Assembly (NCBI RefSeq): GCF_002095385.1
Contig: NZ_MIPP01000016.1
Span: forward strand, 1-64,000
Direction: 5' to 3'
Length of the DNA stretch: 64,000 bases
Source: Pantoea eucrina
GTDB lineage: Bacteria; Pseudomonadota; Gammaproteobacteria; Enterobacterales; Enterobacteriaceae
The position numbers and the translations under genes were made by a program. The notes below the pieces were generated by a model. The model was not told the origin of the DNA. It did no database searches and was given only the letters and a program-made list of their open reading frames with translations. Below, piece after piece: positions 8,055-12,517 of this stretch. Numbering within the stretch: the stretch's first letter is position 1; every line of letters starts with the position of its first letter.

Positions 8055-8078
8055 CCACGGGCTTGCCCGTGGTTTTTT
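8055..8078 (+). terminator. Intrinsic terminator between brnQ and proY
   Basis: Stem CCACGGG (8055-8061) and CCCGTGG (8066-8072) with a 4-base loop, followed by six T. It separates brnQ from proY, 23 bases before the proY start. Confidence 0.85.
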
Positions 8079-8101
8079 CATTTTCACAGGACCTGTTTGT
8101 T

Positions 8102-9439
8102 ATGCAAGAAACCAACACGCTCAAACGCGGACTGAGCACGCGCCATATTCGCTTTATGGCGCTGGGATCGGCAATCGGTACCGGGCTGTTTTACGGCTCG
8201 GCGGATGCTATCAGGATGGCGGGGCCCAGCGTTTTACTGGCCTATATTATTGGTGGCGCGGTGGCCTATATCATCATGCGTGCGCTGGGGGAGATGTCGG
8301 TTAACAATCCGCAATCAAGCTCCTTTTCGCGCTATGCGCAGGATTATCTCGGTCCGCTGGCGGGCTATATCACCGGCTGGACCTACTGCTTTGAGATCCT
8401 GATTGTGGCGATCGCGGATGTCACCGCATTTGGCATCTATATGGGCGTCTGGTTTCCGGATGTACCGCACTGGATCTGGGTGCTGTCAGTAGTGCTGATT
8501 ATCGGCGCCATCAACCTGATGAGCGTGAAGGTGTTTGGCGAAGTAGAGTTCTGGTTCTCTTTCTTTAAGGTCGCCACCATTATCATCATGATTGTGGCGG
8601 GCTTTGGCATGATTTTCTGGGGCATCGGCAACGGCGGAACGCCGACCGGGATCCATAATCTCTGGAGCAACGGCGGCTTCTTCGCCCACGGTATTGTGGG
8701 TATGCTGCTCTCGCTGCAGATGGTGATGTTTGCCTATGGCGGGATCGAAATCATCGGTATTACCGCCGGTGAAGCGGATGAGCCCGCCAAATCGATTCCG
8801 CGCGCGATCAATTCGGTGCCGCTGCGTATCCTGGTGTTTTATGTGGGTACGCTTTTTGTCATCATGTCGATCTACCCGTGGAATCAGGTCGGTACCGAGG
8901 GCAGCCCCTTTGTGCTGACGTTCCAGCATCTGGGTATCGCTGCGGCGGCGTCAATTCTTAACTTTGTGGTGCTGACCGCTTCGCTATCTGCCATCAACAG
9001 CGATGTGTTTGGCGTGGGGCGTATGCTGCACGGTATGGCGCAGCAGGGCCATGCGCCTAAAGTGTTCCAGAAAGTCTCTTCGCGCGGCATCCCGTGGGTG
9101 ACGGTGGTGGTGATGATGTTTGCGATGCTTATCGCCGTTTATCTGAACTACCTGATGCCGGAAAAAGTCTTCCTGGTGATCGCCTCGCTGGCGACCTTTG
9201 CCACGGTCTGGGTATGGATCATGATCCTGCTGTCGCAGATCGCATTCCGGCGCAAAATTGGCAAGGCGCAGGCGGCGCAGCTGCAGTTTGCCGTACCGGG
9301 CGGCAGTGCCACCACCTGGGCAGGCGTGCTGTTTCTCGCCTTTATCATTGCGCTGATTGGCTATTTCCCTGATACGCGAATTTCACTCTACGTGGCTTTG
9401 CCTGGATTATGCTGCTGCTGCTGGCGTGGCCGCTGGTGA
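8102..9439 (+). CDS. proY: Amino acid permease ProY, 3' end frameshifted
   Basis: An APC-superfamily proline-type permease with about 12 membrane segments. The ATG at 8102 ([20 protein letters not shown]) is used rather than the longer open frame because family members begin here. The frame as read gives 445 residues ending in an unnatural [13 protein letters not shown]. Adding one base near 9394-9399 (GTGG-CTTT, probably a lost G) restores [25 protein letters not shown] and a stop at 9454-9456, 451 residues in all. Only the end of the last membrane helix is affected. ProY is cryptic or weakly expressed in E. coli; substrate here is inferred from homology. Terminator at 9478-9503. Confidence 0.9.
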
Positions 9440-9477: not shown

Positions 9478-9503
9478 AGTCGCCCTGTGTGGCGACTTTT
9501 TTT
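9478..9503 (+). terminator. Intrinsic terminator after proY
   Basis: Stem AGTCGCC (9478-9484) and GGCGACT (9491-9497) with a 6-base loop, running into a T tract. It lies 21 bases beyond the restored proY stop. Confidence 0.85.
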
Positions 9504-9507
9504 ATGG

Positions 9508-9540
9508 GAAAAAAAGTATTCGGCGCATCCTGTCGCCGAA
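9508..9540 (-). terminator. Candidate terminator for the leftward phytase operon
   Basis: Stem TTCGGCG (9519-9525) and CGCCGAA (9534-9540). Read on the minus strand it is followed by TAC and a long T run. It faces the proY terminator between convergent genes but is 200 bases past the phytase stop. A second hairpin, AGCCCGC/GCGGGCT at 9705-9721, lies closer to that stop but lacks a T run. Confidence 0.5.
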
Positions 9541-9740: not shown

Positions 9741-10970
9741 TCAGGGAGCCCATGTGACGGGGGCGAGGGCGCTGCTGTCGACTCCCTGCCTGAGCTGAGC
9801 CAGCGTCGATTGATAAGGACAGAGCGTGCCGATGGCGCTGTCGTGACAGTCTGGCTGATGCCACTCTGCCTGCAGTAAAGGGTGCTGCCGATCCACCGGC
9901 GCGAGCTGGCGCAGCGCATCCAGACTCTGCGCCTGAAAGTAAATGCGCAGCCGGCGGCTGTTGTCACGCGTATCGCGCCAGCGCTCAAACACCAGGCTGC
10001 TGCCCGGCGGGATATTACCGCGCGCGTAGCCCGGCAGCTGCCAGCTGAAATTCATCAGGGTGCGCACCATTGCGATATTGGTATCGTGGGCTACCAGCAG
10101 CAGCCAGCGGGTATCGGGCGAGCCGGGACGATCTTCGAGCGCCGCGATCGCCGTATTGAGCAATATTGAGCCGCGCTTTTGTGCCAGATAAGGGACATCG
10201 TTACTCAGATCGTAATTTGCGGTGAGCAGTGGCAGCAGCGCCGTAATCTGCTGCGCGCTGTTCAGGCGCCCCTGCGCCAGCGCCTCTGGTGGCAGATTTT
10301 CACTCCAGCCGAGACGCAGCGTTTCCACCATGCTCGCCATGACGCTTAATCCCTGGATATAGCTGTGGCCGCTCCGGGTCTGCTTCAGCTGCCACGGGCG
10401 CGAAAAAAAGCGGCAATCGCCGTCACAGACCGCCGCATTTAGCTGCCGGATCGCCGGCTGCAGCCGCTGCTGCAGCGCAGCAAGGTCGCCAGCCCGTGCG
10501 GCAATCGCTGCCTGCTCGCGGGCAGGATCGGTCCGGGCAAATGGAAATTTATCGCTCTGAAACAGGGGATCCGCCCCATCGGCAACAACGTGCACCGGCA
10601 CACCGCAGCCGGGAAACGCGCCGTCAGTCAGCGCCTGTGCCGTGGCCCGCGTGCGCTGCAGCGGGCTGGCGCGCACATAAATTTGCCGGCTGTCAGGGCA
10701 GCCCGCGTGGAGCAGGCCCGCCTGACGGTAGTAGTTACCCTGCCAGCGTCCTTTATTGACCACCGCGCTGTAGCCGTGACCGGTAAGTTCGCCATCCGCC
10801 GTGCTCCAGCGCGGCCAGGGGTGCTGCGTGGCCGCTTCAATCTCTGCCCGGTTAGCCGCCGTCGGAGGACGTACGCCGTGCCGGCCGATCTCTACCACCT
10901 TTTCCAGCTGCCAGCGATCGGCTGCGGTGGCGAGCAGCGGCAGCAGCAGCAATATCAGCAGCGATTTCAC
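9741..10970 (-). CDS. Periplasmic histidine acid phosphatase, AppA-like phytase
   Basis: A 409-residue histidine-type acid phosphatase with a signal peptide (MKSLLILLLLPLLATAA). The catalytic motif RHGVRPP is at residues 30-36 and the proton-donor motif HDTN at 295-298. HDTN and the following LPG...PPGSSLVFERW resemble E. coli AppA phytase rather than glucose-1-phosphatase. The cysteines at 91, 121, 182 and 186 suggest periplasmic disulfides. It likely releases phosphate from phytate or other phosphomonoesters. The GTG start overlaps the stop of the inositol monophosphatase-like gene as GTGA (10967-10970), so translation is coupled. In E. coli malZ occupies this site. Substrate is inferred; the phosphatase family is clear. 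Confidence 0.88.
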   Translation of the reverse strand: MKSLLILLLLPLLATAADRWQLEKVVEIGRHGVRPPTAANRAEIEAATQHPWPRWSTADGELTGHGYSAVVNKGRWQGNYYRQAGLLHAGCPDSRQIYVRASPLQRTRATAQALTDGAFPGCGVPVHVVADGADPLFQSDKFPFARTDPAREQAAIAARAGDLAALQQRLQPAIRQLNAAVCDGDCRFFSRPWQLKQTRSGHSYIQGLSVMASMVETLRLGWSENLPPEALAQGRLNSAQQITALLPLLTANYDLSNDVPYLAQKRGSILLNTAIAALEDRPGSPDTRWLLLVAHDTNIAMVRTLMNFSWQLPGYARGNIPPGSSLVFERWRDTRDNSRRLRIYFQAQSLDALRQLAPVDRQHPLLQAEWHQPDCHDSAIGTLCPYQSTLAQLRQGVDSSALAPVTWAP

Positions 10971-11773
10971 GTCAGCGGCTCCGCCAGCAGCGCATTGATC
11001 TGCGGCCAGAGCGTGGCGTTAGCCAGCAGCACCGGATTGCCCTGCGTCAGGCCATTATTCTGCTCATAACGGTTGGTCTCTCCACCCGCTTCCCGCATCA
11101 GTACGATGCCTGGCAGGCCGTCCCACGGCTGCATGCGCGCTTCGTAATAGCCGGTCAGCCGCCCGGCCGCCGCCCACGCGCTCATCAGCGCCCCGGAACC
11201 GTTGCGGATAAACATGCCGCCCTGCTGCAGCAGCGCGCTGATAAAGTCGAGCAGTGGAGCCGCAGGCTGACTGGTGGAGCAGCCCAGACCAAACAGCCCC
11301 TGGCTCAGCTGGCCGGCGCTGTGTGCCCGGATACGCTGCTCGTTCATCCATGCGCCTTTGCCCCGGCAGGCGTGAAAGATCTCATGATGATTGGGATCGC
11401 ATACCACGCCAATAACCGGTTCGCCTTCACACACAATCGCCAGCGCCACGCACCAGTTGTGCAGCCCGCTGAGAAAGTTGCTGGTGCCATCAATCGGATC
11501 AACTACCCAGATAAAGCGTGCCTGTCCGGCGTCTCCGCCGCTCTCCTCACCGATAACTGCGTCTTCAGGAAAGCGTTCCAGGATAAGGTGCCGGATTAAC
11601 TCCTCAACGTTGCGGTCAGCCTCACTGACCAGATCCTGTAAATCCTTCTTATATTCTGCAATCAGCTGGTTACGCTGCTGATACCACGACATGGCGCGAC
11701 TGCCAGCGGCTCTGGCGACCTCGCAGGCAAACTGATAGCGCGCCTCTAATTCAGTTAACGTAGCTGATGACAT
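10967..11773 (-). CDS. Inositol monophosphatase family protein
   Basis: A 268-residue member of the Mg-dependent IMPase/SuhB superfamily. The metal ligands are visible: GEESG (Glu77), DPIDGTSNF (Asp92, Asp95) and WDGL (Asp218; the family norm is WDxAAG, here WDGLPG). No signal peptide, so it is cytoplasmic. It is not the suhB orthologue by position, and it differs from SuhB along its length. It is coupled to the downstream phytase gene by a 4-base overlap, which suggests a role in inositol phosphate breakdown, though other small phosphomonoesters are possible. The start at 11773 is preceded by a GAGGG-type ribosome site on the minus strand. Confidence 0.85.
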   Translation of the reverse strand: MSSATLTELEARYQFACEVARAAGSRAMSWYQQRNQLIAEYKKDLQDLVSEADRNVEELIRHLILERFPEDAVIGEESGGDAGQARFIWVVDPIDGTSNFLSGLHNWCVALAIVCEGEPVIGVVCDPNHHEIFHACRGKGAWMNEQRIRAHSAGQLSQGLFGLGCSTSQPAAPLLDFISALLQQGGMFIRNGSGALMSAWAAAGRLTGYYEARMQPWDGLPGIVLMREAGGETNRYEQNNGLTQGNPVLLANATLWPQINALLAEPLT

Positions 11774-11876
11774 GTTTCCCTCTTATCATTTTCTGGCTGG
11801 TGTAGTAACCAGACGTGCCTGAACAGGCGGAATGGTGGTGTGGCCGGGTCTGGTAAAGTTAAGAAAGGCTTCATTA

Positions 11877-11896
11877 AGCCGCAGATATATGCGGCT
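11877..11896 (-). terminator. Weak hairpin between acpH and the IMPase gene
   Basis: Stem AGCCGCA (11877-11883) and TGCGGCT (11890-11896) with a 6-base loop, 40 bases after the acpH stop. The following minus-strand bases are T-rich but not a clean T run, so termination is uncertain. Confidence 0.35.
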
Positions 11897-11935: not shown

Positions 11936-12517
11936 TCAGAGGCGCTGCGCGCGAGCGTCTGCCATCAGGCGCGGATAGAAAGCAAAAAACAGCGCTTCCA
12001 GCGCGTCATAGTGATCAACAAAATCCTGATAGGAGTCGCGCAGCGCCGCAAGACGGGGACGGCGATACGCCATGCCGCGCAGCACCCGCTCCAGCCGCGC
12101 CGGTTCGGCGTAGTGTTCAAACCAGCGTTCGCGCCACATCACCGCGTTGAGCTCAATAAAGCTTTCTGGCGTTCCCGCCAGCTGCGGCACAATATGCCGC
12201 TGCGCAGCCTCACTAAAGGCGGCGAGTGAGATATCAGGCTGGAACTGCTGCCAGTGGCGCGCAAGAAAATGATCCCAGATCACATCAAGCGTAATCGGGG
12301 CTACGCGCCGCGTTTCCGGACGAAACCACTGCCGGGCGGTACGCACTTCAGGCAGGTTGTCCGTCAGCACATCGATACGGCGGTGCAGGGCGATCCCCGC
12401 TGCAACCGGTGCCGGCCACTGCGCCTGAACATTGCCGCGCACAAAGTCGGCCAGCAGGTTGCCCAGCAGCGAGCTTTCTGCCAGCGTGGCAAGATGAAGG
12501 TGAGCAAGAAAATTCAT
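11936..12517 (-). CDS. acpH: Acyl carrier protein phosphodiesterase AcpH
   Basis: A 193-residue HD-related phosphodiesterase that removes 4'-phosphopantetheine from holo-ACP. Family motifs [19 protein letters not shown] and GIALHRRID are visible; the length is the same as I recall for E. coli AcpH (formerly YajB). It is divergent from queA, as in E. coli. The start ATG is at 12515-12517. Frame intact. Confidence 0.93.

Follow-up and report, generated by a model that had tools for sequence, protein, structure and literature searches.

Phytate is a main organic phosphorus store in seeds and soils, and PhyK-type phytases strip it to lower inositol phosphates. We know of no dedicated bacterial inositol-phosphate transporter so far. 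In the sections of the papers that were available, 2wnh is the structure of PhyK from Klebsiella ASR1 and Klebsiella was isolated on phytate as the exclusive carbon and phosphorus source (PMC11219571), and PhyK is described as assumed to dephosphorylate phytate completely (PMC12838507). The phyK gene has also been reported in Pantoea sp. 3.5.1, where its context was likened to that of P. vagans; section 12 of that paper mentions no inositol monophosphatase (IMPase) (PMC4642748). Among importers of phosphorylated compounds, AfuABC takes up hexose phosphates, and AfuA of Actinobacillus binds hexose-6-phosphates (PMC4546632, in the part available). An operon in the order LacI-IMPase-antiporter-phytase, which is central to what follows, was not described in the open-access literature searched, that is, in the available parts of PMC4546632, PMC11219571, PMC4642748, PMC10221785, PMC12838507, PMC9430895, PMC4052901, PMC12712290 and PMC2597717.

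The window that we analysed is a stretch of 64,000 nucleotides from Pantoea eucrina (NZ_MIPP01000016.1, positions 1 to 64,000), and its genome (G000) is a 3.89-Mb draft. An IMPase-family gene on the minus strand (10967-11773, ATG at 11773 to TGA at 10967, 268 aa, PF00459) is the first of a pair, followed on the same strand by the gene for a PhyK-type histidine acid phytase (9741-10970, GTG at 10970 to the stop at 9741, 409 aa, PF00328). We propose, with a probability of about one in two, that the two genes form an operon for phytate use, whose most likely origin is a LacI-IMPase-antiporter-phytase operon. The proposal draws on the gene content, the tight spacing, the complete operon of Winslowiella at the same site, the IMPase phylogeny and the iol genes.

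The original prediction was that the IMPase stop overlaps the phytase start. Both frames are open at these positions and have the 4 bp GTGA in common (10967-10970, minus strand), as read from the sequence. A GGAG, possibly the ribosome-binding site, was found by eye 8 nt before the phytase GTG and within the IMPase gene (10979-10982, minus strand), and the first residues of the phytase, about 17 (10920-10970, minus strand), were judged by eye to be a likely Sec signal peptide. Two terminator-like hairpins (9540-9519 and 9497-9478) lie 3' of the phytase within 9478-9540 on the minus strand. Folding of the gap between acpH and the IMPase gene gave a hairpin, GCCGCA...TGCGGC (11877-11896, minus strand), which is a possible weak terminator; with the window's sequence alone folded, its z was -2.4 and 1 of 200 shuffles was equally good.

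The pair is flanked by proY (8063-9439, plus strand; 889 bits, above the cut-off of 736) and acpH (11936-12517, minus strand; assigned from 279 bits, below the cut-off of 331, and from synteny). The order in E. coli strain 08-00022, the one strain compared, is brnQ-proY-malZ-acpH-queA. With the same flanks, the pair fills the malZ position between proY and acpH, as had been predicted. The window's genome gave no full-length malZ match and one partial match of 82 residues. At the 3' end of proY (9395-9439), the residues are unlike those of relatives and matching ends around residue 446 of 458, which may reflect a frameshift. The nearest named locus, that of Pantoea eucrina strain Russ, is 93% identical in the phytase and 96% in the IMPase. 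Both genes of the pair have a low dN/dS against P. eucrina G155 (NG86; 0.035/0.349 for the phytase and 0.018/0.292 for the IMPase), with 0.016/0.304 for the neighbouring acpH.

The phytase matches PF00328 with 107 bits and carries RHGVRPPT and AHDTN, the RHGxRxPT and HD motifs of histidine acid phytases. It had been labelled AppA-type, and this label has to be replaced. The protein reached 210 bits with the NCBIfam AppA equivalog NF007552 (cut-off 585) and 162 with the Agp equivalog (cut-off 425). Its nearest solved chains are those of the 3-phytase 2wnh and 2wni (566 and 561 bits), compared with 139 bits for the phytase 1dkl, which we take to be E. coli AppA. Judged by these scores, it is a PhyK-type phytase (the Klebsiella 3-phytase) and not AppA; the phytase tree described below was built without AppA, and the closeness to PhyK over AppA is read from 566 versus 139 bits. 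In the phytases of Erwinia typographi (L261) and Erwinia sp. ErVv1 (L258), AHDTN reads ASDIN and the conserved HD is altered.

The fold of the IMPase is not in doubt. The protein matches PF00459 with 184 bits (gathering score 27), contains the motifs GEES, DPIDGT and WDGLPG, and has no signal peptide that we could see by eye. It is one of four PF00459 genes in the genome and stays below the cut-offs of the SuhB equivalog NF008027 (144 bits, cut-off 332) and the histidinol-phosphatase HisN, TIGR02067 (157 bits, cut-off 275).

We then surveyed 61 genomes of the window's genus, some of which are still filed under Mixta, [Erwinia] or Enterobacter. At E <= 1e-60, the IMPase was matched in 59 of them and the phytase in 55. 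Reading the acpH-IMPase site in each of the 59 showed an intact pair in 39, a degraded pair in one (G191) and an IMPase without an intact phytase in 19; among these reads, G199 stops at the contig edge and G179 retains a phytase remnant. The resulting 39/1/19/2 split was compiled by hand, as were the AfuA and antiporter tallies given below. A strain-specific pair is ruled out by this co-occurrence survey, which had been suggested along with the original prediction: the genes are intact and adjacent at the site in 39 of 61 genomes. Fourteen of the 19 IMPase-only genomes have a phytase elsewhere, that of G173 with only 42% identity, and five have no intact phytase (G184, G202, G169 and G179 gave no match at the cut, and the match in G176 has two stops; the IMPase start of G176 is doubtful). 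Two small genomes, G188 (2.4 Mb) and G190 (1.4 Mb), gave neither an IMPase nor a phytase match at E <= 1e-60 and have an iolD match above the cut-off.

Measured from the first base of the IMPase stop, the first usable phytase start of all 39 pairs falls in a range from 1 nt upstream to 18 nt downstream; these are the first possible and hence candidate starts, with starts more than 40 nt upstream left out. The start is GTGA or ATGA in 12 pairs, TTGA followed by ATG in 2, 2-3 nt on in 16 and 12-18 nt on in 9. From this spacing, we infer that translation of the phytase may be coupled to that of the IMPase through the start/stop overlap. In two genomes, G172 (L120:8155-8955) and G198 (L137:5717-6526), the IMPase frame is open and adjoins an open phytase frame, and the metal-ligand motifs are altered (GETA and DPLDGS in the former, SKMQ and EPINGT in the latter). 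The altered motifs argue against an essential IMPase step in those genomes, where the IMPase frame possibly serves the translation of the phytase.

These observations bear on a different explanation, in which the phytase would work for phosphate supply alone, the substrate of the IMPase would be a different phosphate ester of the cytosol, and the common transcript would be a relic of an older operon. We consider this unlikely, although several facts speak for it. The IMPase is retained in the five genomes without an intact phytase, the phytase is retained beside the two altered IMPases, and the locus has no importer gene. The first two of these also count against an uptake route for inositol phosphate. 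The maintenance of tight spacing in 39 genomes is harder to reconcile with phosphate supply alone.

Beyond the genus, we looked at 149 genomes of the family. A phytase of at least 40% identity was found in 13, with an IMPase within 3 kb in five of them (G000, G146, G027, G032 and G016) and not in the other eight, which again counts against the uptake route. The gap between IMPase and phytase in G027, G032 and G016 measures 1.65-1.74 kb and is filled by a major-facilitator gene, and a LacI-like gene lies upstream (the LacI-like gene tested against family models was that of L067). We then classed 77 named phytase loci by what lies up to 4.5 kb from the phytase (up to 9 kb in the case of IMPase-C), at an identity of at least 50% for the IMPase, at least 55% for the antiporter and LacI, and 60% for AfuA, IMPase-C and LacI3. 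An IMPase is near the phytase in 48. Of these, 25 are pairs at the proY-acpH site (L270 degraded), 16 are LacI-IMPase-OPA-phytase loci, two are the Winslowiella loci, four are AfuA-type with IMPase-C and one is other. About one IMPase-linked locus would be expected by chance, as estimated from the four PF00459 genes in G000, but the loci are kin, so this is not a test.

The order LacI-IMPase-antiporter-phytase was seen in 18 of the 77 loci. The operon is present in Klebsiella, Raoultella, Serratia, some Pantoea and a Vibrio, and its holders include K. pneumoniae, K. oxytoca, K. michiganensis, Raoultella, Serratia sp. AKBS12 (L257), several Pantoea and Vibrio salinus. Winslowiella iniecta and W. 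arboricola carry the entire operon between acpH and proY, which is the site of the window's pair. The window has an operon-clade IMPase and a PhyK-type phytase in one direction, as the operon does, with no antiporter gene between the two genes and no LacI gene upstream. Five of the 77 loci lack an IMPase, with the phytase either at the site or beside a single LacI or antiporter gene, and 24 have none of these partners within the set limits. The latter fit phosphate supply alone and weigh against the uptake route. In three loci of other Erwiniaceae (L258, L265, L267), the phytase sits at the proY-acpH site without these partners. In Erwinia rhapontici (L244:4551-8239), two phytase genes flank a LacI-type gene at the acpH-proY site.

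The antiporter itself resembles transporters of organic phosphates. Its best models are PgtP, UhpC and GlpT, all below the NCBIfam cut-offs. It aligns to GlpT 1pw4 with 176 bits, and an Arg, a His and an Arg, presumably the GlpT substrate residues, are aligned. Eight of the 61 genus genomes have an antiporter of the operon type (76-78% identity), and in all eight it adjoins IMPase-B and the phytase by coordinates. Relatives in the order were found in at least 2 of 247 genomes at E <= 1e-120, a strict cut, and in many genomes it was the best 6 candidates that were scored. Two genomes from another family of the order (L297:5014-7167 and L298:6164-8378) have an IMPase gene and an antiporter gene of 47-49% identity 10-15 nt apart; there was no phytase match within the 14 kb read.

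To place the window's genes, trees were built from aligned tblastn segments (61 IMPase rows and 65 phytase rows). Of the 39 pairs, 22 were included and 17 left out; of the 19 IMPase-only loci, 6 were included and 13 left out. The proY-acpH site IMPases group together in one clade (100/99), whose sister group, at a moderate support of 93/88, consists of the operon IMPases from Klebsiella, Raoultella and Pantoea; the operon IMPases of Winslowiella, Vibrio and Serratia fall outside, and IMPase-C stands apart. In the phytase tree, the phytases of the Klebsiella-type operon and the Afu-linked phytases are nested within those of the Pantoea pairs (100/98). The two trees conflict, which indicates that genes were exchanged between loci and does not settle the direction of evolution. 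On the simple reading of the IMPase tree, the operon would be older, and the pair would have arisen from it when the antiporter and LacI genes were lost; this hangs on a root given by a single outgroup row on a long branch, flagged by the program. Given that the operon of Winslowiella occupies the same proY-acpH site, and given the position of the site clade in the IMPase tree, the pair is probably what remains of an operon for inositol-phosphate uptake after the loss of its regulator and transporter.

A second kind of linkage involves an ABC importer. In four Pantoea loci (L112, L113, L114, L117), the phytase has a second LacI-type gene beside it, and the genes for an AfuABC-like importer and IMPase-C are divergent from these; the same contigs are the four Afu loci counted among the 77 and add no further cases. 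The binding protein of these loci reaches 306 bits with AfuA 4r72, where the His-Asp and Glu that contact the sugar are aligned, and it also matches the pyridoxal-phosphate binding protein 6wce with 250 bits, so that the ligand is not readable from the match. Given the kept hexose-phosphate residues, hexose phosphates may be the ligand of the AfuA homologue. The window's genome has an AfuA homologue on C2, for which the best NCBIfam model is a 2-aminoethylphosphonate binding protein (206, below the cut-off of 393), and AfuB/AfuC-like genes with IMPase-C on C28. A GlpT is encoded on C7 (944 bits, cut-off 748). An intact AfuA is encoded in 26 of the 39 pair genomes and an operon-type antiporter in 2 others, which leaves 11 with neither (AfuA is split in 2 of the 11). 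An intact AfuA was not significantly associated with the pair (26 of 39 genomes with and 10 of 22 without the pair, p 0.17).

It is conceivable that the AfuABC-like importer and its own IMPase-C are the working route of uptake in the window's lineage, and that the IMPase of the pair is a second, partly redundant phosphatase. The genes on C2 and C28 and the four of 77 named loci where the phytase adjoins such an importer fit this explanation. We nevertheless hold it to be quite unlikely: AfuA of Actinobacillus binds hexose-6-phosphates (PMC4546632, in the part seen) and the sugar-contacting residues are kept here, and the 11 pair genomes without an intact AfuA or an operon-type antiporter speak against it. 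The same 11 genomes count against the uptake route that we propose.

Other architectures were seen as well. A Klebsiella plasmid (NZ_CP138437.1, L292:6212-14966) carries genes for a KdgM-type porin, a phytase (40% identity), an ABC importer, a 479-aa IMPase and a LacI-type protein. The C-terminus of the 479-aa IMPase scores 28.9 bits with a dual-specificity phosphatase domain, below the cut-off of 33.5. In G173 (L129:628-7697), a KdgM porin gene, phytase, ABC genes and IMPase follow in one run, as on the Klebsiella plasmid, and in L066 a KdgM-like gene lies 3' of the phytase. A plasmid origin was considered and rejected; the search gave 7 records at E <= 1e-60, all of them Klebsiella, and one is 5.4 Mb in length and so hardly a plasmid. 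That phytase, IMPase and importer are linked repeatedly and in differing architectures weighs against the phytase serving phosphate supply alone, and these arrangements suggest uptake for the window's pair as well.

In the phytate-use operon that we propose, the exported PhyK-type phytase would trim phytate to lower inositol phosphates in the periplasm, and a lower inositol phosphate, probably the monophosphate, would enter the cell. Its importer in other genera would be the OPA-type antiporter whose gene lies between those for IMPase and phytase. In the window's lineage, uptake would run through another importer of phosphorylated compounds, such as the AfuABC-like one (C2/C28) or GlpT (C7). 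The cytosolic IMPase would then take off the last phosphate, and the iol pathway would consume the myo-inositol. Mammalian IMPase is not known to act on Ins(2)P, the axial isomer. The overlap of start and stop would couple phytase translation to IMPase translation. The iol genes are present: iolB, iolC, iolD, iolG, iolE and an iolA-like gene for methylmalonate-semialdehyde dehydrogenase lie together on C8, each above its NCBIfam cut-off, and iolD is above the cut-off in 60 of the 61 genus genomes.

The original prediction had read the pair as a possible route to complete phytate breakdown, with the caveat that the phytase acts outside and the IMPase inside. The caveat is apt, and it is answered in principle by the antiporter gene that lies between the two genes in other genera. 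The reading itself is plausible and, as far as gene content and comparison reach, partly supported. Our broader proposal, which we hold tentatively and at a little under even odds, is that PhyK-type phytases are part of a pathway dedicated to inositol-phosphate uptake, with an OPA antiporter or AfuABC-like importer and a cytosolic IMPase that frees inositol, of which Pantoea retains a stripped, translationally coupled two-gene form. The predicted importer gene between the two genes in relatives suggests that such bacteria import a half-digested product of phytate and complete the breakdown internally. If a phosphorylated product is imported and finished inside, this would point to the first dedicated bacterial inositol-phosphate transporter that we know of. 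Import, if true, would also help to explain how Klebsiella could be isolated on phytate as the exclusive source of both carbon and phosphorus (PMC11219571, in the part available).

Regulation was searched upstream of the IMPase. Pho regulation was rejected there, in line with the earlier observation that the region has no Pho box: the best match was 11/18 with 208 of 300 shuffles equally good, versus 15/18 and 0 of 300 for phoB in the window, which served as the control. This too argues against phosphate supply as the sole role. A search for a sigma-70-like promoter upstream gave no match. The palindrome search and alignments revealed a conserved block before the operon IMPase; a LacI operator common to the operon and the window's pair was rejected, as they gave none. 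In several Pantoea (L148, L126, L184), the inverted repeat TTAACTTTTGTTAA, a possible operator, lies before the IMPase, and it is degenerate in the window at about 11850-11870.

Compared with known systems, the window's IMPase has the PF00459 family and motifs in common with SuhB, the inositol-1-monophosphatase, but it falls in its own clade, apart from the copy on C43 of the same genome, which we read as SuhB. The phytase belongs with E. coli AppA phytase and the glucose-1-phosphatase Agp to the PF00328 histidine acid phosphatase superfamily, yet it is far below both NCBIfam equivalog cut-offs. The organophosphate:phosphate antiporters UhpT/GlpT are matched by the antiporter of the related operons, which aligns with GlpT; it is below all named NCBIfam cut-offs, and its gene is absent at the window's locus. 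The AfuABC hexose-phosphate importer (PMC4546632, in the part seen) is not part of the window's locus, whereas a homologous importer and an IMPase are encoded elsewhere in the genome and, in some Pantoea, beside the phytase. The PhyK genes lie in the LacI-IMPase-antiporter-phytase operon in seven of seven loci (L235-L241; K. pneumoniae, K. oxytoca, K. michiganensis, K. spallanzanii, K. grimontii, Raoultella planticola and R. terrigena), and the window differs from them in being without the antiporter and LacI genes. The phytases of the Klebsiella loci are 65-66% identical to that of the window, and PhyK of Klebsiella sp. ASR1 (2wnh, 2wni) is its closest solved structure, with motifs in common.
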